From Pseudorhodobacter antarcticus (GTDB lineage Bacteria; Pseudomonadota; Alphaproteobacteria; Rhodobacterales; Rhodobacteraceae), in the NCBI GenBank assembly GCA_945862465.1, contig CAMAYO010000016.1, positions 1 to 40,952 of the forward strand: a stretch of DNA of 40,952 bases, in the 5' to 3' direction. The translations under genes and the position numbers were made by a program. The notes beneath the pieces were generated by a model, which did not search any database, was not told the origin of the DNA, and was given only the letters and a program-made list of their open reading frames with translations. Below, piece after piece: positions 8,238-24,782 of the stretch. Numbering within the stretch: position 1 is the stretch's first letter; every line of letters begins with the position of its first letter.

Positions 8238-8241
8238 GGGA

Positions 8242-9132: not shown

Positions 9133-9156
9133 ATTTCCCCCCATTTGCCCCCAGTT

Positions 9157-9199
9157 TTGCGCTTTCCCAAGCGCAAGAGCAATTGCCAGTTTGGCCAAA
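9157..9199. promoter_or_regulatory. two palindromes upstream of dgoK, candidate operators
   Basis: TTGCGCTT (9157-9164) and AAGCGCAA (9169-9176) form a perfect 8+8 inverted repeat with a 4-base spacer, 24 bases before the dgoK start. A second perfect palindrome, TTTGGCCAAA, lies at 9190-9199. Both are the size and position expected for repressor sites controlling the galactoside operon. No regulator gene for them is in the window, so the binding protein is unknown. The first could also simply be an RNA hairpin in the dgoK leader. Confidence 0.4.
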
Positions 9200-9233
9200 T
9201 CCCTTCCGGCTTTTGCACAAAGCAGCAGGCTTT

Positions 9234-9266
9234 CTGGCGCTATCGCCAGCAAGGCTCTGGACCTAA
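9234..9266 (+). promoter_or_regulatory. TauR-type direct repeats upstream of tpa
   Basis: CTGGACCTAA at 9257-9266 is an exact match to the CTGGACYTAA repeat that I recall being described for TauR of Rhodobacter capsulatus. A weaker partner, CTGGCGCTAT (7 of 10), starts exactly 23 bases upstream (9234-9243). The same 23-base phasing is seen before xsc. The pair lies 106 bases before the tpa start. The weak copy overlaps a perfect inverted repeat CTGGCG/CGCCAG (9234-9249), so it may have another reading. A clear -35/-10 could not be placed. Confidence 0.65.
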
Positions 9267-9372: not shown

Positions 9373-10746
9373 ATGAACACGATGACCAATGACCTGAGCG
9401 GCGTCGTCGCTGCCGACCGCGCCCATGTGTGGCACCACCTAAGCCAGCATAAGCAATACGAAACCGTTGACCCCCGCGTGATCGTGGAAGGCAAGGGCCT
9501 GCGGGTCTGGGATGCCAAGGGCAAGGAATATATCGACGCCGTGTCAGGCGCGGTGTGGACAGTGAACGTGGGCTATGGCCGCGAAAGCATCGCCAAGGCT
9601 GTGGCGGACCAACTGGTCAAGATGAACTACTTTGCAGGCTCGAACGGCACGGTTCCCGGCGCTTTGTTTGCCGAAAAGCTGATCACCAAGATGCCGGGGT
9701 TGAGCCGTGTGTATTATTCCAACTCGGGCTCGGAAGCCAATGAGAAGGTCTATAAGATGGTGCGCCAGATCTCGCACCGTCATCACGGTGGGATGAAGAA
9801 CAAGATCCTCTACCGCGAGCGCGACTATCACGGCACCACGATTGGCACGCTCGCCACGTCGGGCCAAGCCGAACGCGCCAAGCAATACGGGCCCTATCCC
9901 GACGGCTTTGTGATGGTGCCGCACTGCTTGGAGTATCGTAAGCAATGGGATGTCGCGAACTACGGCGAGCGCGCGGCGGATGCGATTGAAGAGGTGATCC
10001 TGCGCGAAGGGGCCGATACCATCGGCTGCTTGGTGCTGGAACCTGTGACCGCTGGTGGCGGTGTGATCGTGCCACCGAAAGGCTATTGGGAGCGCGTTCA
10101 AGAGATCTGCAAGAAGTACAACATCCTGCTGCACATCGACGAAGTGGTCTGCGGTGTGGGCCGCACAGGCGTGTGGTTTGGCTATCAGAACTACGGCATC
10201 AAGCCTGACTTTGTGACGATGGCTAAGGGTGTGGCTTCGGGCTATGCAGCGATTTCTTGCACAGTGACGACCGAAGAAGTCTTTGGCATGTTCAAAGACG
10301 ATGCCGCCGATACGCTCAGCTATTTCCGCGACATCTCGACCTTTGGCGGTTGCACGGCAGGGCCTGCGGCGGCTTTGGAGAATATGCGGATTATCGAAGA
10401 CGAGAACCTGCTGGACAACACCCTGCGCATGGGGGCGCGCACGATTGCGAACCTGAACGCGCTGATGGAAAAGCACAAGGTGATCGGCGATGTGCGCGGC
10501 GCTGGCCTGTTCTGCGGGGCCGAACTGGTGGCAGACCGTGTGACCAAAGAGCCTATGGATGAAAAACGCGTCGCCGCAGTGGTGGCCGATTGCAACGCCC
10601 ATGGCGTGATCATCGGCATGACCAACCGCTCGATCCCCGGTTTGAACAACACGCTGTGCCTGTCGCCCGCGCTGATTGCTACGGCCGATGACATTGATGC
10701 GATCACCGATGCGATCGACAATGCCCTGACGCGGGTGTTCGGCTGA
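9373..10746 (+). CDS. tpa: taurine--pyruvate aminotransferase
   Basis: 457 residues, class III PLP aminotransferase. The opening HVWHHLSQHKQYE and the segment SGAVWTVNVGYGRESIA are typical of bacterial Tpa. The motifs SNSGSEANEK, ERDYHGTT, HIDEVVCGVGRTG and MAKGVASGY follow, with the Schiff-base Lys at K285. It transfers the amino group of taurine to pyruvate, giving sulfoacetaldehyde and alanine. The ATG at 9373 has GAGGAG (9361-9366) in front; the long upstream open frame from 9145 crosses the promoter and is not coding. It is followed by its regulator and by xsc, the next step. Use of 2-aminoethylphosphonate as a second substrate is conceivable given phnX downstream but is not shown. Confidence 0.93.
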   Translation: MNTMTNDLSGVVAADRAHVWHHLSQHKQYETVDPRVIVEGKGLRVWDAKGKEYIDAVSGAVWTVNVGYGRESIAKAVADQLVKMNYFAGSNGTVPGALFAEKLITKMPGLSRVYYSNSGSEANEKVYKMVRQISHRHHGGMKNKILYRERDYHGTTIGTLATSGQAERAKQYGPYPDGFVMVPHCLEYRKQWDVANYGERAADAIEEVILREGADTIGCLVLEPVTAGGGVIVPPKGYWERVQEICKKYNILLHIDEVVCGVGRTGVWFGYQNYGIKPDFVTMAKGVASGYAAISCTVTTEEVFGMFKDDAADTLSYFRDISTFGGCTAGPAAALENMRIIEDENLLDNTLRMGARTIANLNALMEKHKVIGDVRGAGLFCGAELVADRVTKEPMDEKRVAAVVADCNAHGVIIGMTNRSIPGLNNTLCLSPALIATADDIDAITDAIDNALTRVFG

Positions 10747-10754
10747 CACCAAAA

Positions 10755-10810
10755 GCGGGGGGTTCACACCCCCGCACCCGCACCAAAAAGCGGGGGTTTC
10801 ACACCCCCGC
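10755..10810 (+). repeat. tandem hairpin repeat between tpa and tauR
   Basis: Two near-identical 34-35 base units (10747-10780 and 10781-10815) each hold a perfect 7-bp hairpin, GCGGGGG/CCCCCGC, with a 7-base loop (10755-10775 and 10790-10810). Neither is followed by a T tract on the plus strand. They may weaken read-through from tpa into tauR or protect the tpa 3' end. The second unit runs directly into the dispersed element at 10819. Confidence 0.6.
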
Positions 10811-10818
10811 ACCCCCGT

Positions 10819-10841
10819 GGGATATTTGTACACATATGAAA
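10819..10841 (+). repeat. dispersed palindromic intergenic element, copy 2 core
   Basis: The core reads GGGATATTT followed by GTACACATATGAAA. It matches copy 1 (1060-1082, minus strand) at 20 of 23 positions. In both copies a C/G-rich stem lies on the GGGATATTT side. The element lies between tpa and tauR, 64 bases before the tauR start. Confidence 0.55.
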
Positions 10842-10904
10842 GGGGGGCGCGGCTGCAAGGCTGGGCCCCTTTGCTTTGAAGGGCCCTTTGGTCCGGAGGA
10901 TGTG

Positions 10905-12407
10905 ATGGCCACGATCCCGCCCGAAGCTTTTGTGCTGCCCGCAGCCGAGCGGGGCAGTTTGCAACAGCGCATAAGGCAGATGGTAACCGAAGGCGTTTTG
11001 TCGGGCCGGTTTCGGCCCGGGGCAAAGATGCCCTCATCGCGCGGCCTTGCGGCACATTTGCAAATCTCGCGGCTGACGGTGACGCTGGCCTATGCCGAAC
11101 TGGTGGCACAGGATTATTTGGCCCCGCAAGGGCGGTCGGGCTATTACATTTCCGACAACGCGCCTTTGGCCAGTGAATTGCCCGCCCAAGCTGCGCGGGC
11201 CGAGGCGGTGGAGTTTGGCCGCATAGCGGGGCGCTTCACAGGTGGGCGCGGCGTGGAACGGCCCGAGGATTGGGAGCGCTATCCCTTTCCCTTTATCTAC
11301 GGCCAAGCTGATCCCAGCCTGTTTGATCACCACAACTGGCGGCAATGTGCCGTGCGCGCCCTTGGGCGGCGCGATTTTGCCGCGATGACGGCGGATTACT
11401 ACGAACGCGACGATCCTTTGCTGATCGAACACCTGCTCCGTCATATCCTGCCTCGCCGAGGCATTGCCGCGCGTGAGGAGGAGGTGCTTTTGACCATGGG
11501 CGCGCAAAACGCCCTGTGGCTGGCCGCCGCTTGCTTGCTTGGCCCCGACCGCAGGGCTGTGATGGAAAACCCCGGCTACCCCGGTCTGCGCGCGGTTTTG
11601 GATGCATCTGGCACGCAGGTAAGCGCGGTGGATGTGGATGCCGATGGTCTGCCGCCCGACGGCATCCCCAAGGGCGTGGACGTGGTGTTCACCACCGCCA
11701 GCCACCAATGCCCAACCAATGCCACCATGCCCATAGACCGCCGCCGCGCCTTGCTAGAGGCGGCAGAGAGTGACGGCTTTGTAATTGTTGAGGATGATTA
11801 CGAGTTTGAGATGTCGTTCCTAAAGCCCGTCTCGCCCGCGCTGAAATCTTTGGATGCGGGGGGGCGGGTGGTTTATGCGGGGTCGTTTTCCAAATCGGTC
11901 TTTCCGGGGATGCGCCTTGGCTACCTTGTCGGCCCCCCCGGCTTTATCCGCGAGGCCCGCGCCCTGCGCCTGATGACGCTGCGCCATCCGCCCGGGCATA
12001 TCCAGCGCACCATGGCCTACTTCCTAAGCCTTGGGCATTATGACACGCTGATCAACCGGATGCGCGCGGCCTTTCGCAAGCGGCGTCAGGTGATGCAAGA
12101 CGCCATTGATGCCCACGGATTGACAGTGGCGGGGCAGGGCGGCTTTGGGGGATCAAGCTTTTGGATGCAAGCCCCCGTCGACACCGAAGCCTTGGCCACC
12201 CGTCTGCGCGGCGAAGGTGTCTTGATCGAACCGGGCCGCCCCTTCTTTGACCCATTGCGCGAAGATCGCACCTTTTACCGTTTGGGCTATGGGTCCATCC
12301 CGCAAACCCGCATTGCCGAAGGCATTGCCAAGATCGCCTGTGCCATCAAGGCCGAAACTGGCCTTACGGCGGGATCATCACTGGACCTAAGCGCCCACAG
12401 GCCCTAA
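10905..12407 (+). CDS. tauR: MocR-type (GntR/aminotransferase) regulator of taurine genes
   Basis: 500 residues with an N-terminal winged-helix GntR domain (about residues 15-85; SGRFRPGAKMPSSRGLA, then SRLTVTLAYAEL). A fold-type I aminotransferase-like domain fills the rest, with PLP Lys K330 in AGSFSKSVFPGMRLGY. This is the MocR architecture and the known arrangement of TauR, which activates tpa/xsc in response to taurine. The ATG at 10905 follows GGAGG at good spacing. The gene sits between tpa and xsc, and its last codons carry the direct repeats that probably control xsc. It starts 158 bases after tpa across the hairpin repeats. Activator rather than repressor action is taken from the family. 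Confidence 0.9.
   Translation: MATIPPEAFVLPAAERGSLQQRIRQMVTEGVLSGRFRPGAKMPSSRGLAAHLQISRLTVTLAYAELVAQDYLAPQGRSGYYISDNAPLASELPAQAARAEAVEFGRIAGRFTGGRGVERPEDWERYPFPFIYGQADPSLFDHHNWRQCAVRALGRRDFAAMTADYYERDDPLLIEHLLRHILPRRGIAAREEEVLLTMGAQNALWLAAACLLGPDRRAVMENPGYPGLRAVLDASGTQVSAVDVDADGLPPDGIPKGVDVVFTTASHQCPTNATMPIDRRRALLEAAESDGFVIVEDDYEFEMSFLKPVSPALKSLDAGGRVVYAGSFSKSVFPGMRLGYLVGPPGFIREARALRLMTLRHPPGHIQRTMAYFLSLGHYDTLINRMRAAFRKRRQVMQDAIDAHGLTVAGQGGFGGSSFWMQAPVDTEALATRLRGEGVLIEPGRPFFDPLREDRTFYRLGYGSIPQTRIAEGIAKIACAIKAETGLTAGSSLDLSAHRP
12358..12390 (+). promoter_or_regulatory. TauR-type direct repeats upstream of xsc, inside the tauR 3' end
   Basis: CTGGACCTAA at 12381-12390 is identical to the tpa copy. 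CTGGCCTTAC at 12358-12367 matches CTGGACYTAA at 8 of 10 positions and lies exactly 23 bases upstream, the same phasing as before tpa. Both lie within the tauR coding sequence, where they encode part of its C-terminus. The downstream copy ends 55 bases before the xsc start. Confidence 0.68.
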
Positions 12408-12410
12408 GGT
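12382..12410 (+). promoter_or_regulatory. possible sigma70-type promoter of xsc overlapping the TauR site
   Basis: TGGACC (12382-12387) and TAAGGT (12405-12410) are 17 bases apart, leaving room for a short leader before the GAAGGAG ribosome site (12431-12437). Both hexamers are poor matches, as expected for an activator-dependent promoter, so this is only a suggestion. No equivalent pair is present at the tpa site, which weakens it. Confidence 0.25.
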
Positions 12411-12445
12411 TAGAACCGACCAAACGTCTTGAAGGAGCACAACCC

Positions 12446-14221
12446 ATGCGCATGACCACCGAAGAAGCCTTTGTCAAAACCCTGCAAATCCACGGCATCG
12501 AGCATGTGTTCGGGATCATCGGGTCGGCCTTTATGCCAATCTCGGATATTTTCCCCAAGGCCGGCATCCATTTTTGGGACTGCGCGCATGAAGGCTCGGG
12601 CGGGATGATGGCCGATGGCTTCACCCGCGCGTCGGGCAAGATGTGCATGATGATTGCGCAAAACGGGCCGGGGATTACGAACTTTGTCACCGCCGTTAAA
12701 ACCGCCTATTGGAACCACACGCCCTTGTTGCTGGTGACCCCGCAAGCGGCCAACAAAACCATTGGGCAGGGCGGCTTCCAAGAGGTCGAGCAGATGGCGC
12801 TGTTCAAGGACATGGTCTGCTATCAAGAAGAGGTCCGCGACCCGACCCGTATGGCCGAAGTGCTGAACCGCGTGATCTTGAACGCCAAGCGCATGTCAGC
12901 GCCCGCGCAGATCAACGTGCCGCGCGATTACTTCACCCAAGTCATCGACATTGACCTGCCCCGCATTGTGGAATTCGAACGCCCCACGGGCGGCGATCAT
13001 GCTTTGTCGGAAGCCGCAGCCTTGCTGTCGTCGGCCAAGTTCCCCGTGATCCTCAATGGTGCTGGCGTGGTTTTGGCGGGCGGTATCGCAGCCTCGATGG
13101 CTTTGGCCGAGCGGTTGGATGCCCCCGTTTGCGTGGGCTATCAGCACAATGACGCTTTCCCCGGCAGCCACCCGCTGTTTGCCGGCCCCTTGGGCTATAA
13201 CGGCAACAAGGCGGGGATGCAGTTGATTGCCCAAGCCGATGTGGTGCTGGCCCTTGGCACGCGCCTCAACCCCTTCTCGACCTTGCCCGGCTATGGGTTG
13301 GACTATTGGCCCAAAGACGCCAAGATCATTCAGGTTGATATCAACCCCGCTCGCATTGGCCTGACCAAGAAGGTCACCGTGGGCATCATCGGTGATGCCA
13401 AGGCCGTGGCCGAAGGCATTCTGGCGCGTCTGACCAAATCGGCTGGCGATGCGGGCCGCGCAGATCGCAAGACGCTGATCAGCACGACCAAAAGCCGTTG
13501 GGCGCAAGAGCTGTCTTCGATGGACCACGAGCAAGACGATGTGGGCACCACCTGGAACCAGCGCGCCCGTGCCGCCAAGCCCGATTGGATGAGCCCGCGC
13601 ATGGCATGGCGCGCCATTCAATCCGCTTTGCCGAAAGAGGCGATTATCTCGTCCGACATTGGCAACAACTGCGCCATCGGCAATGCCTACCCCACCTTTG
13701 AAACGGGCCGTAAGTATCTGGCTCCGGGCCTGTTTGGGCCTTGTGGCTATGGCTTGCCTTCGGTCGTTGGGGCCAAGATCGCGTGTCCTGACACGCCGGT
13801 TGTGGGCTTTTCGGGCGACGGGGCCTTTGGCATTGCTGTCACCGAACTGACGGCCATTGGTCGCGGCGAATGGCCTGCTGTCACGCAGGTGGTGTTCCGC
13901 AACTACCAATGGGGCGCTGAAAAGCGCAACTCGACCCTGTGGTATGATGACAACTTTGTGGGCACAGAACTGGACGAAGGTGTTTCCTACGCGGGCATTG
14001 CCAAGGCCTGCGGTTTACAAGGTGTTGTGGCCCGCACCCAAGAAGAGCTGACCGCCGCCCTGCACAAGGCGATTGACGATCAGATGAACCATGGCAAGAC
14101 CACCTTGATCGAGGCGATGATCAACCAAGAGCTGGGCGAACCCTTCCGCCGCGATGCCATGAAGAAACCGGTTGAAGTCGCCGGGATCTCTGCCGCCGAT
14201 ATGCGCCCGCAGCTGGTGTAA
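12446..14221 (+). CDS. xsc: sulfoacetaldehyde acetyltransferase
   Basis: 591 residues, a ThDP-dependent enzyme of the expected length. The catalytic Glu E49 is in DCAHEGSGGMMADG, the diphosphate/Mg motif is SGDGAFG (GDG at 457-459) with NYQWGAEKRN behind it, and IAQNGPGITNFVTAV is typical of Xsc. It converts sulfoacetaldehyde plus phosphate into sulfite and acetyl phosphate in the cytoplasm, directly after Tpa. GAAGGAG precedes the ATG. The next gene starts two bases after the stop codon, so xsc is co-transcribed with the phosphonate-type genes. Its products are the inputs for AckA and SoeABC/TauE encoded downstream. Confidence 0.95.
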   Translation: MRMTTEEAFVKTLQIHGIEHVFGIIGSAFMPISDIFPKAGIHFWDCAHEGSGGMMADGFTRASGKMCMMIAQNGPGITNFVTAVKTAYWNHTPLLLVTPQAANKTIGQGGFQEVEQMALFKDMVCYQEEVRDPTRMAEVLNRVILNAKRMSAPAQINVPRDYFTQVIDIDLPRIVEFERPTGGDHALSEAAALLSSAKFPVILNGAGVVLAGGIAASMALAERLDAPVCVGYQHNDAFPGSHPLFAGPLGYNGNKAGMQLIAQADVVLALGTRLNPFSTLPGYGLDYWPKDAKIIQVDINPARIGLTKKVTVGIIGDAKAVAEGILARLTKSAGDAGRADRKTLISTTKSRWAQELSSMDHEQDDVGTTWNQRARAAKPDWMSPRMAWRAIQSALPKEAIISSDIGNNCAIGNAYPTFETGRKYLAPGLFGPCGYGLPSVVGAKIACPDTPVVGFSGDGAFGIAVTELTAIGRGEWPAVTQVVFRNYQWGAEKRNSTLWYDDNFVGTELDEGVSYAGIAKACGLQGVVARTQEELTAALHKAIDDQMNHGKTTLIEAMINQELGEPFRRDAMKKPVEVAGISAADMRPQLV

Positions 14222-14222
14222 G

Positions 14223-15344
14223 ATGCGCTACGACCTAGCCATTGTTGGCGCGGGCATACTGGGGCTGGGCCATGCCTTGGCCGCCTCCCGACGTGGCCTG
14301 AAGGTCGTGGTGATTGATCGTGAGACCGAGGCGGTTGGCGCCTCGGTCCGCAATTTTGGCTTTGTCACGGTGACGGGCCAGCAGCAGGGCGATTGCTACC
14401 GGCGTGCGATGCGCTCACGCGATGTGTGGGAAGAGGTTGCCCCCAAGGCGGGCATTCCGGTGGAACATCAGGGCTTGCTGGTTGTGGCCCAGCGGCCCGA
14501 GGCGATGGACTGTCTGGAAGCCTTTGCGCGCACCGAAATGGGGCAGGGGTGCCATGTGCTGACGGCCGCGCAAACCATGGCCCAGCACGGCGCTGTGCTG
14601 TCGGGCAAGCCCATTCAAGGCGCTTTGTGGTCCAGCCACGAACGCCGTGTGGAAAGCCGCTTTGCCATCCCGAAACTCGCTGCTTGGATCCAAAGCCTTG
14701 GCGTGACCTTTTTGCGCAAGACCTTGGTCAAAGAGGTGCAAAAGGGCAGGGTGCTGACAACATCGGGCGTGATCGAGGCGACACAGGTCGTGGTCTGCCC
14801 CGGCGATGATATGCTGACCCTTTACCCCGAGGTGATCGCCCGCCACCAGATCACCCGCTGCCGCTTGCATATGATGAAGGTGATGCCCGCCAAGCCGATC
14901 AAGCTGCCCGGTTCCATCATGTCAGACCAAAGTCTGGTGCGCTATTTGGGCTATGCCGAACTGCCTGAATCTGAACCCATCAAAGCGCGCCTGCGCGCCG
15001 AACAGCCGCGCACTTTGGCGGAAGGTATTCATTTGATCGTCGTGCAAGGGTCAGACGGCGGTTTGATTGTGGGCGACAGCCACCATTACGACTGGTCGCC
15101 CTCGCCCTTCCAACGGGCCGAGGTGGATGATCTGATCATGGACGAGTTGCACCAAGTGCTGAACGTGCCGGGTGCGCAAATTACCGAACGGTGGAATGGC
15201 ACTTACGCCTCTGGCCCTGAAACCATGATGCGCGAAACGATAGACGACCAAACCCGCTTGGTGATCGTTACCAGCGGCACAGGGGCCAGCACTTCCTTCG
15301 CCATCGGCGAGGAAACCATTGCAGAGATTTACGGGAGAGCGTGA
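14223..15344 (+). CDS. FAD-dependent amine oxidoreductase, phosphonate-cluster type
   Basis: 373 residues, DAO-type flavoprotein. It has an N-terminal FAD motif (IVGAGILGLGHALAASRRGLK, then VVIDRE) and a C-terminal second FAD contact (IVTSGTGASTSF). It resembles the small group of oxidoreductases (TIGR03364-like) that occur next to phosphonatase genes and are thought to deaminate aminophosphonates oxidatively. Here it is immediately followed by phnX with a TGATG overlap, so the likely product is phosphonoacetaldehyde. The amine could be 2-aminoethylphosphonate or an N-methylated form. A role on a sulfonate amine, such as N-methyltaurine, is the main alternative because xsc is just upstream. 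No transmembrane or signal segment is seen. Confidence 0.78.
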   Translation: MRYDLAIVGAGILGLGHALAASRRGLKVVVIDRETEAVGASVRNFGFVTVTGQQQGDCYRRAMRSRDVWEEVAPKAGIPVEHQGLLVVAQRPEAMDCLEAFARTEMGQGCHVLTAAQTMAQHGAVLSGKPIQGALWSSHERRVESRFAIPKLAAWIQSLGVTFLRKTLVKEVQKGRVLTTSGVIEATQVVVCPGDDMLTLYPEVIARHQITRCRLHMMKVMPAKPIKLPGSIMSDQSLVRYLGYAELPESEPIKARLRAEQPRTLAEGIHLIVVQGSDGGLIVGDSHHYDWSPSPFQRAEVDDLIMDELHQVLNVPGAQITERWNGTYASGPETMMRETIDDQTRLVIVTSGTGASTSFAIGEETIAEIYGRA

Positions 15345-16141
15345 TGCTGAAAGCGGCGGTATTTGATTGGGCGGGCACGGTGATTGACCACGGCAGCCAA
15401 GCGCCGATGGGGGTTTTTGTGAAGACCTTCAAGCAGTTTGGCGTCGATATTACAGTGGCCGAAGCCCGTGGCCCGATGGGCATGGCCAAGCGCGATCACA
15501 TCAAAACGCTGATGGCCGTGCCCCGTATCGCGGCGGCTTGGGAACAGGCGCAGGGCGGTGCCCCAGATGAAGCGGCGATTGACCGGGTTTATGAGGTCTT
15601 TGTGCCGATGAACGTGGAAGCCGTGACCGACTATTGCACCATGATCGAAGGCGCTGTGCCTGCCATCAACCGGATGCGCGCGCGGGGCATGAAGATCGGC
15701 TCTACCACGGGTTACACGCGCTCCATCATGGCCAAAGTGCTGCCCTTGGCGGCAGCGCAGGGGTATGAGCCTGACAATCTGGTCTGCGGCGGCGATCTGG
15801 CCGAAGCGCGGCCTTCGGCGATGATGATGTACCGCACCTTTCTGGATTTGGGCGTTTGGCCCGCCCATATGGTTGTCAAAGTCGATGACACGGGTGTGGG
15901 CATTGGCGAGGGCTTGAATGCGGGTTGCTGGACCGTTGGGGTTGCCGTTTCGGGCAATGCCTTTGGCCTGAACCCTGCGGAAACGGCAGCGCTGAGCAAG
16001 GCCGAATTTGCCAAAATGCGGGACGCCGCCTATGCCGACCTGCGCCGCACCGGCGCGCATTATGTCATTGATTCTGTGGCAGATATGGATGCCGTTTTGG
16101 ATGATATCGAAGGTCGGTTGGCGCGCGGCGAGCGTCCGTGA
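15344..16141 (+). CDS. phnX: phosphonoacetaldehyde hydrolase (phosphonatase)
   Basis: 265 residues, a HAD-superfamily C-P bond hydrolase. The nucleophile is D8 in FDWAGT, with Ala in place of the second Asp (A10), a PhnX hallmark. The Schiff-base Lys is K49 in GPMGMAKRDH. IGSTTGYTR supplies the conserved Thr/Ser loop, and the acidic loop VKVDDTGVGIGEG follows. It hydrolyses phosphonoacetaldehyde to acetaldehyde and phosphate. The ATG at 15344 overlaps the previous stop by one base; a GTG three bases upstream is less likely. No 2-aminoethylphosphonate transaminase (phnW) is nearby, so the aldehyde is probably made by the FAD enzyme upstream. Confidence 0.93.
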   Translation: MLKAAVFDWAGTVIDHGSQAPMGVFVKTFKQFGVDITVAEARGPMGMAKRDHIKTLMAVPRIAAAWEQAQGGAPDEAAIDRVYEVFVPMNVEAVTDYCTMIEGAVPAINRMRARGMKIGSTTGYTRSIMAKVLPLAAAQGYEPDNLVCGGDLAEARPSAMMMYRTFLDLGVWPAHMVVKVDDTGVGIGEGLNAGCWTVGVAVSGNAFGLNPAETAALSKAEFAKMRDAAYADLRRTGAHYVIDSVADMDAVLDDIEGRLARGERP

Positions 16142-16881
16142 TCCCGTTTGATCTATCGCCCATCGGCTTGGGCTGGATGGCCGTTACCATATTGGTCGCG
16201 GGCTTTGTGCGTGGCTATTCCGGCTTTGGCTTTTCGGCGCTGACGATTGCATCCTCGGCCCTTGTCACCAACCCGCTGCACTTTGTGGCGGTGGTGGTGG
16301 TGTGGGAAACGGTGATGACGGGGCAAGCGCTGTCTGGCATCTGGAACGATATTGATTGGCGCCGTGTAGGCTTGCTGCTGGTGGGCGCGATGGTGGGCAT
16401 GCCCATTGGCATTTGGGCGCTGACCTCAATCTCGGAAGATGCTGCGCGGGCGGTTATTTCGGCCTATGTGCTGACGATGAGCTTGATTTTGTTGGCGGGC
16501 TGGAAACTGCGTGGCAAGGTTGGCCCCATCGCCAATCTGGGCGCGGGCTTGGTGTCGGGCCTTGCCAATGCGCCGGGGATGGGGGGCTTGCCGGTGGCGG
16601 CGTTCTTTGCTGCCCAAGCCATGTCGCCTGCGGTGTTTCGCGCGACCTTGGTGGCCTACTTTCCGCTGCTCGACCTCTATTCCGCGCCGATCTATTGGTG
16701 GAGCGGCATGGTAACATGGGACACGCTGTGGATATCCCTCATCGGGTTGCCCTTGGTGTTCTTGTCGAACTGGCTGGGCAGCCGCCATTTTCTGCGCACC
16801 GATCCGCAAGATTTTCGCCGGTTTGCGATTTTGCTTTTGGCGGGGCTTGCGGCCCTTGGCCTTTTGAAATCGGTGCTGTGA
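16138..16881 (+). CDS. tauE: TauE/SafE family anion exporter
   Basis: 247 residues with about seven to eight hydrophobic segments. The family repeat appears early as AGFVRGYSGFGFSALTIA and again as AGLVSGLANAPGMGGLPVAAFF. The GTG start at 16138 overlaps the phnX stop as GTGA, so translation is coupled. TauE/SafE proteins are inner-membrane permeases, and those in taurine clusters are thought to export sulfite, or other small organic or inorganic anions, released by Xsc. Here a full sulfite dehydrogenase lies downstream, so the cell could both export and oxidise sulfite. Transport of a phosphonate-pathway product cannot be ruled out. Confidence 0.85.
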   Translation: MIPFDLSPIGLGWMAVTILVAGFVRGYSGFGFSALTIASSALVTNPLHFVAVVVVWETVMTGQALSGIWNDIDWRRVGLLLVGAMVGMPIGIWALTSISEDAARAVISAYVLTMSLILLAGWKLRGKVGPIANLGAGLVSGLANAPGMGGLPVAAFFAAQAMSPAVFRATLVAYFPLLDLYSAPIYWWSGMVTWDTLWISLIGLPLVFLSNWLGSRHFLRTDPQDFRRFAILLLAGLAALGLLKSVL

Positions 16882-17901
16882 ATGCTGCTTGTGGTCAATG
16901 CCGGATCGTCCTCGCTGAAACTGGCGGTCTTTGACGCAAGTTTGACGCAAGTCGCGCAGGCGCGGGCCGAACGGATTGGCACGGGCGGGGCGGCGACGCA
17001 TCTGGACGCTTTGCAGCAGGGGTTGGCCGAGATGGCCATCACCCCCGCTCAACTGGCAGGTGCGGCCCACCGTGTGGTGCATGGCGGTCGCGATTTGACG
17101 CATACGCTGCGCGTTACCCCTGCCGTTCTAGACGGCATCCGTGCTTGCATCCCGCTTGCCCCCCTGCACAATCCCGCCAACTTGACGGGGATAGAGGCTT
17201 TGGCGCGATTAGCGCCCGATTTGCCGCAATATGCCAGCTTTGACACCGGCTTTCACGCCACCAACCCCGATGTCGCTACAAGCTACGCCATACCCGCAGC
17301 GGCCAGCGATCTGGGCCTGCGCCGCTATGGCTTTCACGGGATCAGTTACGCCAGCCTAGTGCGCAACCTAAGCGCGCAAGGCGGCGTGCCCAAGCGCGTG
17401 CTGGGGCTGCATTTGGGCAACGGGGCGTCACTGTGTGCCATCCTGAACGGGCAATCTGTCGCGACAACCATGGGCTATTCGCCCGTCTCTGGCCTCACGA
17501 TGGGCACGCGCAGCGGGGATATGGACGCGAACGCCGTGCTGAAACTGGCCGAGGTCCATGGGCTGGAAGGGGCGGCGCAAATCTTGAACCGCGCTTCGGG
17601 TCTGCTGGGTTTGGGCGGTGTGGCCGATATGCGCGCTTTGCACGAAGCTAAAACGCTGCAAGCGGGCTTTGCGATTGACCACTTTATCTATTGGGCGATC
17701 CGCCATGCGGGCTCGATGATTGCGGCTATGGGTGGGGTGGATTTGTTGGCTTTCACCGGCGGCATTGGGGAGAATGACACCTTGGTGCGTGACCGCATCA
17801 CGCAGGGGCTTGCTTGGGCCGGTGGGCCCCGCGCCGTGGTTGTGCCTGCGGAAGAAGAAAAGCAAATCGCCCTTGATGCGCTGGCGCTGAAGGCGGGTTA
17901 A
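16882..17901 (+). CDS. ackA: acetate kinase, compact form
   Basis: 339 residues, some 60 shorter than the E. coli enzyme through smaller loops; the key segments remain. These are NAGSSSLK (residues 6-13), AHRVVHGG, the FDTGFH motif, RRYGFHG with the active-site His, LGNGAS, TMGTRSGDMD with the active-site Arg, and FTGGIGEND. It should turn the acetyl phosphate made by Xsc into acetate with ATP formation. No phosphotransacetylase gene is in the window, so acetate activation by the acs gene near 28 kb may complete the route to acetyl-CoA. The ATG directly follows the tauE stop (TGAATG). It ends the tightly coupled xsc-ackA unit, 98 bases before soeA. Confidence 0.92.
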   Translation: MLLVVNAGSSSLKLAVFDASLTQVAQARAERIGTGGAATHLDALQQGLAEMAITPAQLAGAAHRVVHGGRDLTHTLRVTPAVLDGIRACIPLAPLHNPANLTGIEALARLAPDLPQYASFDTGFHATNPDVATSYAIPAAASDLGLRRYGFHGISYASLVRNLSAQGGVPKRVLGLHLGNGASLCAILNGQSVATTMGYSPVSGLTMGTRSGDMDANAVLKLAEVHGLEGAAQILNRASGLLGLGGVADMRALHEAKTLQAGFAIDHFIYWAIRHAGSMIAAMGGVDLLAFTGGIGENDTLVRDRITQGLAWAGGPRAVVVPAEEEKQIALDALALKAG

Positions 17902-17922
17902 GGAAGTTCCATAGACGGGGCA

Positions 17923-17968
17923 ATTATCGGGAAATTGGCCTAGCAAAGCGGCGAAATCTCACGATAAT
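17923..17968. promoter_or_regulatory. inverted repeat upstream of soeA
   Basis: ATTATCG (17923-17929) and CGATAAT (17962-17968) are perfect inverted repeats separated by 32 bases in the gap before soeA. The flanks extend the match imperfectly (GGGG on the left, TTCCC on the right). The right arm overlaps TAATAT (17965-17970), which could serve as a -10. It may be an operator or the arms of a regulator's distant half-sites. AAAGGA before the ATG at 18000 is the ribosome site. Confidence 0.3.
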
Positions 17969-17999
17969 ATTCCCAAAGAGCAGATCGTAAAGGACGGCC

Positions 18000-20786
18000 A
18001 TGAATGCGCCTCTGATGAACACCAGCCCCGCCGTCTCGGACGAGGTGCGCAAGACGACCTGTTACATGTGCGCCTGCCGCTGCGGCATCAACGTGCATAT
18101 GAAATCGGGCAAAGTGTCGTATATCGAAGGCAACCGCGACCATCCGGTCAACAAGGGCGTGCTGTGTGCCAAGGGTGCCTCGGGCATCATGCAGGTGACA
18201 GCCCCCAGCCGCTTGCAGCAGCCGCTGAGACGGGTAGGCCCGCGCGGGTCGGGCGCATTTGAGCCCATATCATGGGACGAGGCGCTAGACCTAGCCGTGT
18301 CGTGGATGAAACCCCTGCGCGAAACGGCCCCTGAAAAGCTGGCCTTCTTCACGGGGCGCGATCAAAGCCAATCCTTCACCGGATGGTGGGCGCAGGCCTT
18401 TGGCACGCCCAACTACGCCGCCCATGGTGGCTTTTGCAGCGTGAACATGGCGGCGGGCGGGATTTACACCATCGGCGGGGCGTTTTGGGAATTTGGCCAG
18501 CCCGATTGGGAGCGCACCAAGCTGTTCGTGATGTTCGGCGTGGCCGAAGATCACGATTCCAACCCGATCAAGATGGGTCTGGGCAAGCTGAAAGGGCGCG
18601 GGGCGCGGGTGATTGGGGTGAACCCGATCAGAACCGGCTATAACGCCATTGCCGACGATTGGTATGGCATCACCCCGGGCACCGATGGCCTGCTGATCCT
18701 GTCGCTGCTGCATTGCTTGTTGCAGGCGGGCAAGGTTGATTTGGAGTATCTGGCGCGGTGGACCAACGCGCCTTTGTTGGTGAACGAGGCCGAAGGCCCC
18801 GAAAAGGGCCTGATCCTGAAGAACGCCGAAAGCCAGCCCTTTGTGATTGATAAGCGCACAGGCGCGCCGGCCCCTTGGGATGGCAAAGGCGTGCAGCCTG
18901 ATTTGGGGGCCACATGGCAGGGGCACCGCACCGTGTTTCAGCACATGGCCGAACGCTACCTTGCCCCCGAATACGCGCCCGAGGCTGTGGCCGAGCGATG
19001 TGGCATCCCCGCCGCACGCATCCGCGCACTGGCGGCGGAACTGGCGGATGTGGCCTTTAACCAAGCGATTGAAATCAAACAGGCTTGGACAGACTTTCGC
19101 GGTGATACCCACGACACCATGCTGGGCCGCCCCGTGTCTTTCCACGCCATGCGTGGCATTTCGGCCCATTCCAACGGCTTTCAAACCGCCCGCGCGCTGC
19201 ATTTGTTGCAGATCGTGCTGGGCACGGTGGAAACCCCCGGTGGCTACCGCTTCAAACCGCCCTATCCCAAACCGGTCGAGGCGCACCCGACGCCCCATTT
19301 TGTCACCGCCCCCGGCAAACCCCTGTCAGGCCCGCATTTGGGCTATGTGCGCGGGCCGGAACAACTGGCGCTGAAAGACGATGGCTCACCCGCGCGCATC
19401 GACAAGGCCTTTACGTGGGAGAACCCGTTTTCCGCCCACGGCCTGATGCATATGCTGATCCCCAACGCTCATGCGGGCGACCCCTACCGCATCGACACGC
19501 TGTTTTTGTATATGGCGAACATGGCGTGGAACTCGTCGATGAACACCACCAAAGTGATGGAGATGTTGACCGACAAAGACGAACGTGGCGACTACATCAT
19601 CCCGCGCATCATCTATTCCGATGCCTATGCATCCGAAATGGTGGCCTATGCCGACCTGATCCTGCCCGATACGACCTATCTGGAACGCCACGATTGCATC
19701 AGTCTGCTGGATCGCCCGATCAGCGAACCTGATGCTGCCGGTGACAGCATCCGCTGGCCCGTGTCTGAACCCGACCGCGACGTGCGCGGCTTTCAGTCGG
19801 TGCTGCTAGACTTGGGCGCAAGGCTGGGGCTGGCCCCGATGGTCAACGCCGATGGCGGCCCCAAGTTCAAAGACTACGCCGACTATATCCAAAACCACAT
19901 CCGCCGCCCTGGCGTTGGCCCCTTGATCGGCTTTCGCGGCGCGGACGGCGATAAAGAGGGCAGGGGCGATGCCAACCCCGACCAAATCGCCGCCTATATC
20001 GAAAACGGCGGGTTTTATCAGGCCCATGTGCCAGAGGAAGGGCGCTTCTTTAAGCCGTGGAACATGGCTTATCAGAACTGGGCGGTGCAAACCTCGTTCT
20101 ACGAAAGCCCGCAGCCCTATTTGTTCAACATCTGGTCCGAACCGATGCGCAAGTTTCAACTGGCCGCCGAAGGACACGGGGCGATCCAACCGCCCGACCA
20201 TCTGCGCGCAAGACTGATCCAAGCGATGGACCCTTTGCCGATCTGGTATCCACCCTTTGGCGATTTGGAAGCCTCGGGCTGGGGTTATCCGGTGCACGCG
20301 CTGACCCAAAGGCCCATGGATATGTACCATTCTTGGGGCAGCCAGAACGCTTGGCTACGCCAGATCAGGGGGCGCAACTTCCTGTATGTGCCGACCAAGA
20401 TTTGGGAAGCAGAAGGGTTCAAGGACGGCGACTATGCGCGCGTCTCTTCCCCCAACGGTGGCATCACCGTGCCCGTGGCCCATATGGCGGCGCTGAACGA
20501 AAACACGGTGTGGACATGGAATGCCATCGGCAAGCGCAAGGGTGCTTGGGCCTTGGATGACGATGCGCCCGAGGCCAATCAGGGTTTCTTGCTCAACCAC
20601 CTGATTTCCGAACTTCTGCCTGAAAAGGGTGATGGGATGCGTTATTCCAATTCCGATCCTGTCACAGGTCAGGCCGCTTGGTTTGATCTGCGGGTGCGGA
20701 TCGAAAATGTCGGGCCGATGGAACACGCCTCGCCCGATTTCGCGCCGATCCCCCGTGTGGTGCCGCAGGGAAAGGACCGCGCATGA
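18000..20786 (+). CDS. soeA: sulfite dehydrogenase SoeABC, molybdopterin catalytic subunit
   Basis: 928 residues, a DMSO-reductase-family (CISM) molybdoprotein. The N-terminal [4Fe-4S] ligands are C21, C24, C28 and C56. The likely Mo ligand is C146 in GGFCSVNMAAGG. The C-terminal molybdopterin-binding domain contains SPNGGITVPV. No twin-arginine signal is present, so the enzyme faces the cytoplasm, as described for SoeABC and unlike periplasmic SorA. Together with SoeB and SoeC it would oxidise the sulfite released by Xsc and pass electrons to quinone. The assignment rests on the subunit set and the taurine context; a polysulfide- or thiosulfate-type oxidoreductase is the alternative. It overlaps soeB as ATGA. 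Confidence 0.85.
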   Translation: MNAPLMNTSPAVSDEVRKTTCYMCACRCGINVHMKSGKVSYIEGNRDHPVNKGVLCAKGASGIMQVTAPSRLQQPLRRVGPRGSGAFEPISWDEALDLAVSWMKPLRETAPEKLAFFTGRDQSQSFTGWWAQAFGTPNYAAHGGFCSVNMAAGGIYTIGGAFWEFGQPDWERTKLFVMFGVAEDHDSNPIKMGLGKLKGRGARVIGVNPIRTGYNAIADDWYGITPGTDGLLILSLLHCLLQAGKVDLEYLARWTNAPLLVNEAEGPEKGLILKNAESQPFVIDKRTGAPAPWDGKGVQPDLGATWQGHRTVFQHMAERYLAPEYAPEAVAERCGIPAARIRALAAELADVAFNQAIEIKQAWTDFRGDTHDTMLGRPVSFHAMRGISAHSNGFQTARALHLLQIVLGTVETPGGYRFKPPYPKPVEAHPTPHFVTAPGKPLSGPHLGYVRGPEQLALKDDGSPARIDKAFTWENPFSAHGLMHMLIPNAHAGDPYRIDTLFLYMANMAWNSSMNTTKVMEMLTDKDERGDYIIPRIIYSDAYASEMVAYADLILPDTTYLERHDCISLLDRPISEPDAAGDSIRWPVSEPDRDVRGFQSVLLDLGARLGLAPMVNADGGPKFKDYADYIQNHIRRPGVGPLIGFRGADGDKEGRGDANPDQIAAYIENGGFYQAHVPEEGRFFKPWNMAYQNWAVQTSFYESPQPYLFNIWSEPMRKFQLAAEGHGAIQPPDHLRARLIQAMDPLPIWYPPFGDLEASGWGYPVHALTQRPMDMYHSWGSQNAWLRQIRGRNFLYVPTKIWEAEGFKDGDYARVSSPNGGITVPVAHMAALNENTVWTWNAIGKRKGAWALDDDAPEANQGFLLNHLISELLPEKGDGMRYSNSDPVTGQAAWFDLRVRIENVGPMEHASPDFAPIPRVVPQGKDRA

Positions 20787-21523
20787 CCCAACTTCCCACC
20801 CATACCGACAAGAAACTGGGTCTGGTGATTGACCTTGACACTTGCGTGGGCTGTCAGGCCTGTGTCACCGCCTGTAAGGGCTGGAACGATCAGGGATATG
20901 GCGCGGCACTTTCCGACCAAAACCCCTATGGATCAGACCCTTCGGGCACGTTCTTAAACCGCGTTCACAGCTATCAGGTGCAACCTGATGTGGGTGCAGC
21001 ACAGATTGTCAACTTCCCGCGGTCCTGCCTGCATTGTGAAGATGCGCCCTGCGTGACTGTCTGCCCCACGGGCGCCAGTTACAAGCGCACGGAAGATGGC
21101 ATTGTTCTGGTGAACGAAGACGCCTGCATTGGCTGTGGCCTATGCGCGTGGGCCTGCCCTTACGGTGCGCGCGAATTGGATCAGGCGGTGGGGGTGATGA
21201 AGAAATGCACCCTATGCGTTGACCGCATCTATAACGAAAACCTGCCCGAAGAAGACCGCGAACCCGCCTGCGTGCGCACCTGCCCCACAGGCGCGCGCCA
21301 CTTTGGCGACTTTGCCGACCCAGAAAGCCACGTGTCCAAACTGGTGGCCGAACGGGGCGGTTATGATCTGATGCCCGATTTGAAAACCAAGCCGACCAAC
21401 AAATACCTCGCCCCGCGCAAGAAAGACGTTCCACAAGAGACCAGCCTTTTGGCCCCCTTGCTAGACATTCAAACCACGGGCTTTGCGGGATGGCTGGACA
21501 AAGTATTGGGGAAATTGGGATGA
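20783..21523 (+). CDS. soeB: sulfite dehydrogenase SoeABC, iron-sulfur subunit
   Basis: 246 residues with sixteen Cys in four ferredoxin-type sets, hence four [4Fe-4S] clusters. These are C21-x2-C24-x2-C27-x3-C31, the CLHCEDAPCVTVCP set, the CIGCGLCAWACPYG set, and CTLCVD with CVRTCP. This is the DmsB/PhsB type of electron-transfer subunit. It links the molybdenum subunit to the membrane anchor. No signal peptide is seen, matching a cytoplasmic complex. It overlaps soeA and soeC by four bases each (ATGA), which suggests equimolar, coupled synthesis. Confidence 0.88.
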   Translation: MTQLPTHTDKKLGLVIDLDTCVGCQACVTACKGWNDQGYGAALSDQNPYGSDPSGTFLNRVHSYQVQPDVGAAQIVNFPRSCLHCEDAPCVTVCPTGASYKRTEDGIVLVNEDACIGCGLCAWACPYGARELDQAVGVMKKCTLCVDRIYNENLPEEDREPACVRTCPTGARHFGDFADPESHVSKLVAERGGYDLMPDLKTKPTNKYLAPRKKDVPQETSLLAPLLDIQTTGFAGWLDKVLGKLG

Positions 21524-22401
21524 ATCCGGCACCCTCTGTTATCTTATTCACCGTTCTATCTGGCATGGGCTTTGGCCTTTTGGCCTTTTTGGGCGCGGGC
21601 TTTGTGCAGCCTGCGGGCTGGCTTGCCTTTGCCCATTGGGGGCTTGGCTACGGTTTGGCGGTGGGCGGGCTTACGGCTTCGACCTTTCACCTTGGCAACC
21701 CGCAACGCGCTTTGCGGGCCTTTACCCAATGGAAAACCTCGTGGCTCAGCCGCGAGGCTTGGGCGGCAGTGCTGACCTTGCTGCTTTTGGCCCCTGTCGC
21801 CCTGTCAGACTGGCTGGGCCTTGGCTGGCCGCGCCAAATTGGCTTGGTGGGCGCTGTGGCGTGTTTCGGCACGGTCTTCACCACCTCGATGATCTATGCC
21901 CAGATCGCCGCCGTGCCGCGTTGGAACAATTGGACTGTGCCTGCCATGTTCCTGTCGTTTGAACTGACAGGGGGCGCGCTGTTGTCGGGCCAAACCCTGC
22001 CCGCGCTGATCGGTTGTGCTGCTTTGATCGGCGCGCTTTACGCCCATAAAACCAAGGGCGATGTGGCCTTTGCCAAGCGCGGCCAAACCTTGGGCAAGGC
22101 CACAGGGCTTGACATCGTGGGGGCGGCAAGCGTGTTTGAACAGCCCCACACCTCGCCCAATTACCTGATGCGTGAGATGATCTATGTGGTGGCGCGCAAA
22201 CATGTGTTGCGCCTGTGGCCCATCGCCTTTGGCGCTGCGGCGATTGTCCCTGCGGTGCTGGTAACCGTTTTGCCCAGCCATCCGCTGACCTTTGCGCTGG
22301 CGGGCGTGATCCACCTGAGCGGGGCTGCCGCCTCGCGCTGGTTGTTCTTTGCGCAGGCCGAACATGTTGTGGGGCTGTATTATGGACAGCGGCAGCTTTA
22401 A
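21520..22401 (+). CDS. soeC: sulfite dehydrogenase SoeABC, DmsC-type membrane anchor
   Basis: 293 residues from the ATG at 21520, which overlaps the soeB stop as ATGA; an in-frame upstream ATG at 21490 lies inside soeB. About eight hydrophobic segments are visible. Family landmarks of DmsC-like anchors include GGLTASTFHLGNPQRALRAF near the second helix and SMIYAQIAAVPRWNNW in the middle. It anchors SoeAB at the inner membrane and should transfer electrons to ubiquinone. A 77-base gap with no obvious terminator separates it from the next gene. Confidence 0.85.
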   Translation: MNPAPSVILFTVLSGMGFGLLAFLGAGFVQPAGWLAFAHWGLGYGLAVGGLTASTFHLGNPQRALRAFTQWKTSWLSREAWAAVLTLLLLAPVALSDWLGLGWPRQIGLVGAVACFGTVFTTSMIYAQIAAVPRWNNWTVPAMFLSFELTGGALLSGQTLPALIGCAALIGALYAHKTKGDVAFAKRGQTLGKATGLDIVGAASVFEQPHTSPNYLMREMIYVVARKHVLRLWPIAFGAAAIVPAVLVTVLPSHPLTFALAGVIHLSGAAASRWLFFAQAEHVVGLYYGQRQL

Positions 22402-22478: not shown

Positions 22479-24782
22479 ATGGACAAACTCGCCGAGATTC
22501 CAACCGGAATAGACCCTGTCTGTGGCATGACGGTAAAGATCACCGAGACCAGCCGCAAACACGACCATCAGGGCACGACCTATCACTTCTGCGGGGAAAA
22601 GTGCCGAACGCGGTTCAAGGCGGACCCCTATTTCTACCTGTCAGGCAATGCGAAAATTCGCGGCAAGCTGGCGGTGAAAGGGGTAAGCTACACCTGCCCG
22701 ATGGATCCCGAAGTGGTGCAAGACACTCCCGGCACCTGCCCCAAATGCGGCATGGCGCTAGAGCCTATGACCCCCTCGACCGCGCCCTCGCCCGAACTGG
22801 TCGATTTCACCCGCCGCATGGGGATTTCGGGGGCCTTATCCGTGCCCTTGGTGATCCTGACCATGGGGCCGATGCTGGGGCTTTCTCTGCCTATGGCGTG
22901 GCATCCGTATCTGAACTATGCCCAAGCCACCCTTGCCAGCCCCGTTGTGCTGTGGGCCGCCTTGCCTTTCTTCCAGCGTGCCCGCGACAGCTTGCTGAAC
23001 CGCAGCCCCAATATGTGGACGCTGATCGGGCTTGGGGTGGCGGCAGCTTACACCTATTCGCTACTTGCCACCTTTGCCCCTTGGGTCTTTCCGCCCGCCT
23101 ATCAAGGTGCGATGGGGGTTGAGACGTATTTTGAAGCCTCGGCCGTCATCATCACCTTGGTCTTTCTGGGCCAAGTGCTGGAACTGCGGGCCCGTGCGCG
23201 CACGGGTGATGCGATCCGCGCGCTGATGGATCTGGCCCCCGCCACTGCCTTGCGCGTGCAGCCCGATGGCACGTTTGAGGTGCCCTTGGAAAACATCATC
23301 GCGGGCGATCTGGTGCGGGTGCGGGCCGGTGACAAAGTGCCGGTCGATGGCGTGGTGGTCGAAGGCGCATCTTCTGTTGATGAAAGCTTGCTGACGGGTG
23401 AGGCGCTGCCCGTGGAAAAGACGCTGGCTGCAGCGCTGACAGGCGGCACGCTGAACGGATCGGGCACGCTGGTGATGCGCGCCACACGGGTGGGTGCTGC
23501 GACCGTCTTGGCGCAGATCATCGACATGGTGGCCGCCGCCCGCCGTTCGCGCGCGCCCATTCAGGCACTGGCCGACAGGGTGGCGGCGTGGTTTGTGCCC
23601 ACGGTGGTTGGGGTGGCGCTGGCCTCTTTCGCCGGATGGATGGCCTTTGGGCCAACGCCCGGATTTCTTTATGCCATGGCGGCGGCCGTGTCCGTGCTGA
23701 TCATCGCCTGCCCCTGCGCGCTTGGCCTTGCCACGCCCATTTCCATCACCACGGCGGCGGGGCGGGGGGCCTCGGTCGGGGTGCTGATCAAAGACGCCGC
23801 AGCGCTAGAGGCTTTGGCCAAAGTAGATACGCTGGTGATTGACAAGACTGGCACGTTGACGCTGGGCCGGCCTGTGGTCAGCGACGTGGTTGATCTGGGT
23901 GCTGGCAGCGCTGACGACGTGCTGAGGCTGGCCGCAGCCCTGGAACAAGGCGCAAGCCATCCCTTGGCCAAAGCCATAACGGGTGCGGCAAGCAACAAGG
24001 GCCTTACCCTTCCTGCCGTCACCCAATTTGAAACTGTCGCAGGGCAGGGTGTTAGGGCCGATCTGGGCGCAACCCGACTGGGCTTGGGCAACGCTGCCCT
24101 GCTGGCAACGCTTGGCGTGGCGCTGCCGCCCGAGGTTGCAGCCCAAGCGCAGGCTTTGCGCGAAAGGGGCAAAACGGTGATGTTCTTAACGCAAGGGAGC
24201 ACGTTGTCTGGCCTGATCGCCGCGGTTGATCCTCTCAAACCCAACACCGTCCAAGCGCTGGCCAAACTGCACGCGCAGGGCCTGACCATTGTGATGGCGA
24301 CGGGTGATGCGCAAGCGACGGCGCAAGCCGTGGCGCAAAGCTTGGGGCTCATGCAAATCAAAGCGGGTCTGCTGCCCGAAGGTAAGGCGGCGCTGATTGC
24401 TCAGATGCGCACCAAGGGCCATGTCGTCGCCATGGCTGGCGACGGTGTGAACGACGCGCCCGCTTTGGCCTTGGCCGATGTGGGCATCGCCATGGGCCCC
24501 GGATCGGATGTGGCGGTGGAAAGTGCGGGCATCACGCTGCTCAGCGGCGACCTTTTGGGCATCTCCCGCGCCGTTACCCTGTCGCGCGCCACGATGCGCA
24601 ACATCCGGCAAAACCTGCTCTTCGCCTTTGGCTACAACGCCGTCTGCATCCCCGTGGCCGCAGGCCTACTTTACCCCGTAACGGGCCTTGTCCTATCGCC
24701 CATGATCGCCGCCGCCGCGATGAGCTTATCGTCGGTGTCGGTCATCACCAACGCCCTGCGTCTGCGCGCTCTTAAACTCTAA
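22479..24782 (+). CDS. copA: copper-type P1B ATPase with YHS and HMBD N-terminus
   Basis: 767 residues. A YHS-like metal domain (about residues 12-60: DPVCGM, then YHFCGEKC) is followed by a heavy-metal-binding segment (about 72-98: YTCPMDPEVV, CPKCGM). The P1B core has six to eight membrane helices, the CPC motif at 411-413, the phosphorylated Asp D455 in DKTGT, SLLTGEALPVEK in the actuator domain, and GDGVNDAPALA. There is no classical GMTCxxC heavy-metal domain. It should export Cu(I) or a similar soft metal from the cytoplasm. GAGGAG precedes the ATG. Relation to the preceding sulfite genes is unclear; it may have its own promoter in the 77-base gap. Confidence 0.88.
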   Translation: MDKLAEIPTGIDPVCGMTVKITETSRKHDHQGTTYHFCGEKCRTRFKADPYFYLSGNAKIRGKLAVKGVSYTCPMDPEVVQDTPGTCPKCGMALEPMTPSTAPSPELVDFTRRMGISGALSVPLVILTMGPMLGLSLPMAWHPYLNYAQATLASPVVLWAALPFFQRARDSLLNRSPNMWTLIGLGVAAAYTYSLLATFAPWVFPPAYQGAMGVETYFEASAVIITLVFLGQVLELRARARTGDAIRALMDLAPATALRVQPDGTFEVPLENIIAGDLVRVRAGDKVPVDGVVVEGASSVDESLLTGEALPVEKTLAAALTGGTLNGSGTLVMRATRVGAATVLAQIIDMVAAARRSRAPIQALADRVAAWFVPTVVGVALASFAGWMAFGPTPGFLYAMAAAVSVLIIACPCALGLATPISITTAAGRGASVGVLIKDAAALEALAKVDTLVIDKTGTLTLGRPVVSDVVDLGAGSADDVLRLAAALEQGASHPLAKAITGAASNKGLTLPAVTQFETVAGQGVRADLGATRLGLGNAALLATLGVALPPEVAAQAQALRERGKTVMFLTQGSTLSGLIAAVDPLKPNTVQALAKLHAQGLTIVMATGDAQATAQAVAQSLGLMQIKAGLLPEGKAALIAQMRTKGHVVAMAGDGVNDAPALALADVGIAMGPGSDVAVESAGITLLSGDLLGISRAVTLSRATMRNIRQNLLFAFGYNAVCIPVAAGLLYPVTGLVLSPMIAAAAMSLSSVSVITNALRLRALKL

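Follow-up and report, generated by a model that had tools for sequence, protein, structure and literature searches.

A putative phosphonate cassette within the TauR-linked taurine gene block of Pseudorhodobacter antarcticus

Contig CAMAYO010000016.1 of Pseudorhodobacter antarcticus carries a block of taurine genes at positions 9373–22401 (forward strand) of the 40,952-nucleotide stretch analyzed here, the whole of which we refer to as the window. Between xsc and tauE, this block contains two further genes, one for a flavin adenine dinucleotide (FAD) oxidase of the TIGR03364 (PbfD) family and one for phosphonoacetaldehyde hydrolase (phnX). Judged from its sequence, this two-gene PbfD–PhnX cassette has probably been captured by the TauR regulon, and taurine would thereby co-induce the breakdown of aminophosphonates.

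In the proposed mechanism, TauR, active with taurine, would drive one message from the operator at 12358–12390 through xsc, the oxidase gene, phnX, tauE, and ackA. Xsc would convert sulfoacetaldehyde and phosphate to acetyl phosphate and sulfite, products that AckA, TauE, and SoeABC would deal with. The oxidase, translated from the same message, would form phosphonoacetaldehyde from 2-aminoethylphosphonate or its N-methyl form, and PhnX would cleave phosphonoacetaldehyde to acetaldehyde and phosphate. The cell could use both C2 amines for carbon and nitrogen whatever the phosphate supply, alongside a separate carbon–phosphorus (C–P) lyase. Gene content, packing, empty sites in relatives, operators, and purifying selection are read directly from the sequences, and TauR binding and the PbfD and PhnX reactions are carried over from work on relatives; the single transcript, its induction by taurine, the substrates of these very enzymes, and their physiological use are what we infer.

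Gene packing, TauR operators, and enzymes of the insert

All ten open reading frames (ORFs) from tpa to soeC (Table 1) are open on the forward strand, with starts, stops, and frames intact. The intergenic gaps are 89 bases for tpa–tauR and 38 bases for tauR–xsc, followed by +1 for xsc–oxidase, −1 for oxidase–phnX, −4 for phnX–tauE, and 0 for tauE–ackA; further downstream, they are 98 bases for ackA–soeA, −4 for soeA–soeB, and −34 for soeB–soeC. The gene order, strand, tight packing from xsc to ackA, and 98-base spacing before soeA given in a preliminary description of this DNA are exact to the base, and its view that sulfonate and phosphonate pathways share one tightly packed block is borne out by the four junctions between xsc and ackA.

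Direct repeats of CTGGACYTAA are the binding sites of TauR in Rhodobacter capsulatus (PMC5320631). The window contains two exact boxes of this motif, one beginning 116 bases upstream of tpa and the other 65 bases upstream of xsc, and each is preceded by a weaker box 23 bases upstream, which matches at 7/10 positions before tpa and at 8/10 before xsc. This paired pattern occurs at exactly two places in the 2.92-Mb source genome, before tpa and before xsc, consistent with the link to TauR that had been proposed for the block. Across a sample of 16 genomes of the genus, the pattern is present at 24 places in 14 genomes, all of which can be placed before tpa or xsc from their position, from spacing (G258), or from an identical sequence (G253); the reversed control gave 0. 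A promoter/terminator consensus scan yielded 1 match against a shuffle mean of 1.8 and 6 against 6.8, and says little in such a genome.

The first gene of the insert had been called FAD amine oxidase-like. Its product is indeed an FAD oxidase, but the generic amine oxidase part of that label gives way to the TIGR03364 (PbfD) family, and the gene likely encodes the first phosphonate step. An unrelated amine oxidase was rejected on the TIGR03364 score (424 bits versus a cut-off of 285). The gene also adjoins phnX with a one-base overlap, adjacency being a mark of PbfD membership. The tested PbfD1 of Acinetobacter baumannii is annotated in TIGR03364, and PbfD enzymes yield phosphonoacetaldehyde, the substrate of PhnX, from aminoethylphosphonate or its N-methyl form (PMC10590968). 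In a stretch of A. baumannii DNA, not necessarily from the tested strain, genes for the oxidase (297.1 bits), PhnW (586 bits), and PhnX (353 bits) are consecutive. The AlphaFold model of the P. antarcticus oxidase (predicted local distance difference test score 92.5) assumes a glycine/sarcosine oxidase fold, with a template modeling (TM) score of 0.77 and 16% identity to the top solved match; no close solved structure was found (best E value 2.5e-4). PhnX aligned almost end to end with solved PhnX chains (E values 7e-57 to 2e-64), and the positions of FDWAGT, K49, R156, and KVDDT, which we take to have catalytic roles, line up with these chains.

No PhnW match over the cut-off was obtained in the source genome, which is 92% complete (best match 84.1 versus 400.8 bits), and a PhnW encoded elsewhere in the genome was therefore rejected. 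Because the oxidase falls in the PbfD family, PhnX is present, and no PhnW passes its cut-off, oxidase and PhnX would on paper make up a complete route that dispenses with PhnW. If the FAD gene provides the first phosphonate step, the route requires neither PhnW nor that Tpa should act on aminoethylphosphonate. This touches on another explanation, in which aminoethylphosphonate is accidentally admitted by taurine uptake and deaminated by Tpa; the pair would then serve to remove the aldehyde and amines that result and keep them from hindering Xsc. Such a clean-up would suit the analogy of the substrates and the location in the same gene block, but an oxidase that makes phosphonoacetaldehyde is unnecessary for removing phosphonoacetaldehyde, and we regard this explanation as very improbable.

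In four within-clade comparisons, the ratio of nonsynonymous to synonymous substitution rates (dN/dS) was 0.02–0.10 for the oxidase, 0.04–0.10 for phnX, and 0.02–0.05 for xsc; dS was close to 1 for the two more distant pairs. Oxidase and phnX are under purifying selection. The G+C content of both insert genes (0.609) is the same as that of their neighbors (0.58–0.63), so that composition is uninformative.

Occurrence and history of the arrangement

In a sample of 248 genomes from 247 genera of the family, Xsc was found over cut-off in 155 genomes, PhnX in 19, and TIGR03364 in 8 (nine oxidase genes). For every one of the 20 PhnX genes that pass the cut-off, we viewed as much as 20 kb of surrounding sequence, in some cases shortened by contig ends. 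The oxidase–phnX pair lies beside xsc in three genomes, namely G000 and G077 of the same genus and G068 of another genus, where the contig end falls inside xsc. Placement of phnX between xsc and tauE is rare, with 3 cases among 155 xsc-bearing family genomes. The preliminary description had considered this placement unusual and had suggested a comparative search for xsc–phnX adjacency, which agrees with it; in the genomes and literature searched, the insertion was neither common nor already described. Two genomes of the family sample (G026 and G079) have a TIGR03364 oxidase over cut-off and no PhnX over cut-off.

Within the genus sample, PhnX passes the cut-off in 7 genomes and Xsc in 13. All seven full-length phnX genes of the genus stand behind xsc and the oxidase gene, and an eighth (G259), broken by a contig end, is present as two halves at contig ends. 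The order xsc–oxidase–phnX–tauE recurs in six further genomes of the genus as well as in G068, and an assembly accident in one genome was rejected on this basis. The spacing between phnX and tauE varies, from an overlap in the source genome to ∼20 bases in G077 and G257. Empty sites, in which xsc directly precedes tauE, are found in six relatives (G248, G250, G251, and G261, and, incomplete, G254 and G255).

A wider scan covered the best 80 of 392 oxidase loci of relatives, with neighbors identified by tblastn. phnX was present on 71 of these 80 loci, xsc on 6, and a phnS2-like gene for an aminoethylphosphonate transporter on 12. The six xsc-linked loci are contigs of G253, G260, G258, G257, G077, and G068, all of them metagenome-assembled genomes, and add no new cases. 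Stand-alone pairs in G242 and G083 are accompanied by phnS2 over the family cut-off plus an adjoining permease gene. Given these phnX and phnS2-like genes at the loci of relatives, and phnS2 and permease genes beside stand-alone pairs, the oxidase–phnX pair is a phosphonate unit by origin. Upstream of four stand-alone gene starts (in G242, G181, and G083), the adjoining 300 bases hold no box matching at 8/10 positions or better. G242 has two oxidase–phnX copies, each followed by an isochorismatase-type gene (L045 8614–9273 and L046 3426–4085); these genes resemble biuret amidohydrolase, below its cut-off, and one is near an FdrA-like gene.

The pair might be a passive neighbor, that is, a cassette behind a strong promoter that adds a phosphonate route and whose co-expression with the taurine genes is physiologically meaningless. 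Its occurrence in many contexts in other Alphaproteobacteria and the additional C–P lyase of the host would be in line with this, whereas the order is kept under purifying selection in the clade and the same slot is occupied in a second genus; we consider a passive neighbor unlikely. The source genome contains two PhnJ genes of C–P lyase; on the contig of one of them, PhnC and PhnE (two genes) exceed their cut-offs, and PhnD was not identified. C–P lyase may meet the phosphate need of the cell, and the TauR-driven pair may serve carbon and nitrogen use.

Of 82 loci viewed, 69 have phnX at most 400 bases from the oxidase. We constructed a combined oxidase and PhnX tree (quick method, supported by the Shimodaira–Hasegawa-like approximate likelihood ratio test (SH-aLRT) only) from the source pair and 52 of these loci; the other 17 were not included. 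The seven xsc-linked pairs form one clade (SH-aLRT 99), with G068 beside the pairs of the genus. In an xsc tree (quick method), the eight phnX-bearing rows of the genus, G259 included, also form one clade (97), G068 is placed outside the genus rows, and G034, from another genus, falls among them. These trees are compatible with one early insertion followed by several losses as well as with the pair having entered the same slot by transfer.

Several observations weigh against capture by the TauR regulon. In G068, a citrate-synthase ORF, not ackA, comes next after tauE. The paired-operator pattern was written after the sites had been seen, and the pair search is for this reason a test of exclusiveness, not a discovery. 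Single boxes with at most one mismatch are not in excess in the window (four, a number reached in 6 of 100 shuffles), and the two of them that are not the exact boxes before tpa and xsc lie at 29522–29567, outside the gene block. Identity of the oxidase to the A. baumannii TIGR03364 protein mentioned above, which is not necessarily that of the tested PbfD strain, is 28%. Among the 16 genomes of the genus, PhnS2 exceeds its cut-off in none (AepX and AepP were not searched), and TauA does so in one (G077), which is not the source genome. Finally, we examined the seven xsc-linked rows at the columns that show conservation of ≥90% among 46 other rows (133 in the oxidase, 84 in PhnX). In all seven, oxidase column 340 is I, V, or L (proline in 44/46 others) and PhnX P159 is replaced by alanine (proline in 45/46 others), each being the sole such column of its protein.

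The change at column 340 is also in line with a reading in which the oxidase has shifted to sulfonates, N-methyltaurine for example, and supplies Xsc with sulfoacetaldehyde, PhnX being a passenger. The gene is located immediately behind xsc, and a COG665 oxidoreductase is named in some TauR regulons of Rhodobacterales (PMC5320631). However, a single one of 133 conserved oxidase columns has changed in all seven proteins, no oxidase gene among the nine that pass the cut-off in the family sample adjoins xsc in the absence of phnX, the dN/dS of PhnX is like that of the oxidase, and taurine gave no reaction with the tested PbfD enzymes (PMC10590968). The column changes thus hardly point to a move toward sulfonate substrates, and we attach little credence to a sulfonate oxidase.

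Gene names and neighboring features

Table 1. Genes and operators of the taurine block, in window coordinates
Feature	Position	Strand	Basis
Paired TauR operator 5′ of tpa	9234–9266	+	Exact box 9257–9266; upstream box 7/10; consensus from PMC5320631
Class-III aminotransferase, presumed taurine:pyruvate aminotransferase (tpa)	9373–10746	+	PF00202; operator and neighbors
MocR/GntR-type regulator, presumed TauR	10836–12407	+	PF00392 and PF00155; real start possibly further downstream
Paired TauR operator within 3′ end of tauR, 5′ of xsc	12358–12390	+	Exact box 12381–12390; upstream box 8/10
xsc, sulfoacetaldehyde acetyltransferase	12446–14221	+	TIGR03457, 930 bits (cut-off 676)
FAD oxidase, TIGR03364 (PbfD) family, insert gene 1	14223–15344	+	424.4 bits (cut-off 285.1)
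phnX, phosphonoacetaldehyde hydrolase, insert gene 2	15344–16141	+	TIGR01422, 322.7 bits (cut-off 220)
tauE, sulfite/sulfonate exporter family	16138–16881	+	PF01925
ackA-like acetate kinase, 339 residues	16882–17901	+	PF00871; TIGR00016, 263.6 bits (below cut-off 293.4)
soeA-like molybdopterin oxidoreductase	18000–20786	+	PF00384, PF04879
soeB-like 4Fe-4S protein	20783–21523	+	PF13247
soeC-like DmsC membrane anchor	21490–22401	+	PF04976

Two of the names in the taurine block are presumed. The class-III aminotransferase is called tpa from its PF00202 domain, its operator, and its neighbors, and for its product none of the 25 NCBIfam matches listed, out of 69, reaches the cut-off. The name TauR derives from the operators and the position of the gene; among the matches listed, the best NCBIfam row is the PdxR model (320.9 versus a cut-off of 320). 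As this model is just passed, automatic annotation may misname the regulator despite the TauR operators before tpa and xsc. SoeA, SoeB, and SoeC were named from their Pfam domains alone.

The aligned ranges of the ackA-like product in G252, G253, and G260 likewise comprise 339 residues. soeABC directly follows ackA in the six phnX-bearing genomes of the genus that have sequence there (G000, G077, G252, G253, G259, and G260). In the empty-site genomes G248, G251, and G261, no soeABC was seen in the 8–9 kb fetched after ackA, and in the empty-site genome G250 soeA/soeB are ∼4.4 kb from ackA.

Beyond soeC, a heavy-metal/copper P-type ATPase gene (22479–24782) starts after 77 bases and is retained at this place in G252, G253, and G260. 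It is followed by an ORF for a 691-residue protein (24893–26968) with sugar-transporter/major facilitator superfamily matches and a long stretch that has no Pfam match among the matches listed. Acetyl-CoA synthetase domains are encoded on the reverse strand (27097–29055); this enzyme could convert the acetate formed by AckA to acetyl-CoA, the block being without pta. Upstream of tpa, the reverse strand carries a sugar cluster (4865–9252) consisting of a GH42 β-galactosidase, an SMP-30 lactonase family protein, a 2-keto-3-deoxy-6-phosphogluconate (KDPG)-type aldolase, and a 2-keto-3-deoxy-galactonokinase.

Known systems and biological meaning

TauR regulons of Rhodobacterales include tpa, xsc, tauE, and ackA, the last of these never accompanied by pta, and some include bisC/dmsC/hybA (PMC5320631). 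The P. antarcticus block resembles this taurine dissimilation system in tpa, xsc, tauE, ackA, and the direct-repeat CTGGACYTAA operators, but differs from it by the oxidase gene and phnX between xsc and tauE; phosphonate is unmentioned in the main text of that article. The insert itself resembles pbfD–phnX clusters without phnW (PMC10590968), in which the same two enzyme families are adjacent and an oxidative deamination route is proposed. Whereas those are aminoethylphosphonate clusters, the block described here is without a phosphonate transporter or regulator and stands under TauR operators. Phosphate-insensitive mineralization of aminoethylphosphonate (PMC8316502) is similar in that the compound is used outside phosphate-starvation control. 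It involves LysR-type regulators and AepXVW, AepP, or AepSTU transporters, in contrast to the presumed TauR and the lack of a recognized dedicated importer here, AepX and AepP being outside the search.

In the literature searched, which left out most subscription papers, no description of a taurine operon combined with a phosphonate cassette was found. A genome report treats the taurine and aminoethylphosphonate pathways in separate sections (PMC6754898), and a term search found taurine unmentioned in PMC8316502, PMC10574752, and PMC12366243. The combination of the cassette with a TauR-linked taurine operon is apparently undescribed and occurs in a small group of Rhodobacteraceae.

The joint location of both pathways may extend to their regulation. 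In structure, taurine and aminoethylphosphonate are close analogues, and the two co-occur in animal and plankton matter. More tentatively than the capture of the cassette, we suggest that the block could be a joint sulfonate–phosphonate operon, in which TauR would act as a common sensor of small strong-acid amines, perhaps answering aminoethylphosphonate too, and the release of phosphate would be under carbon/nitrogen control and not phosphate control.

For annotation, the FAD gene is corrected to a likely first phosphonate step, and this clade could escape surveys aimed at phnW or at dedicated phosphonate transporters. If the capture by the TauR regulon is true, a complete two-gene phosphonate route would have been recruited by a foreign regulator, and the operon would link the cycling of sulfur with that of phosphorus within a single cell, with phosphate released independently of phosphate need.

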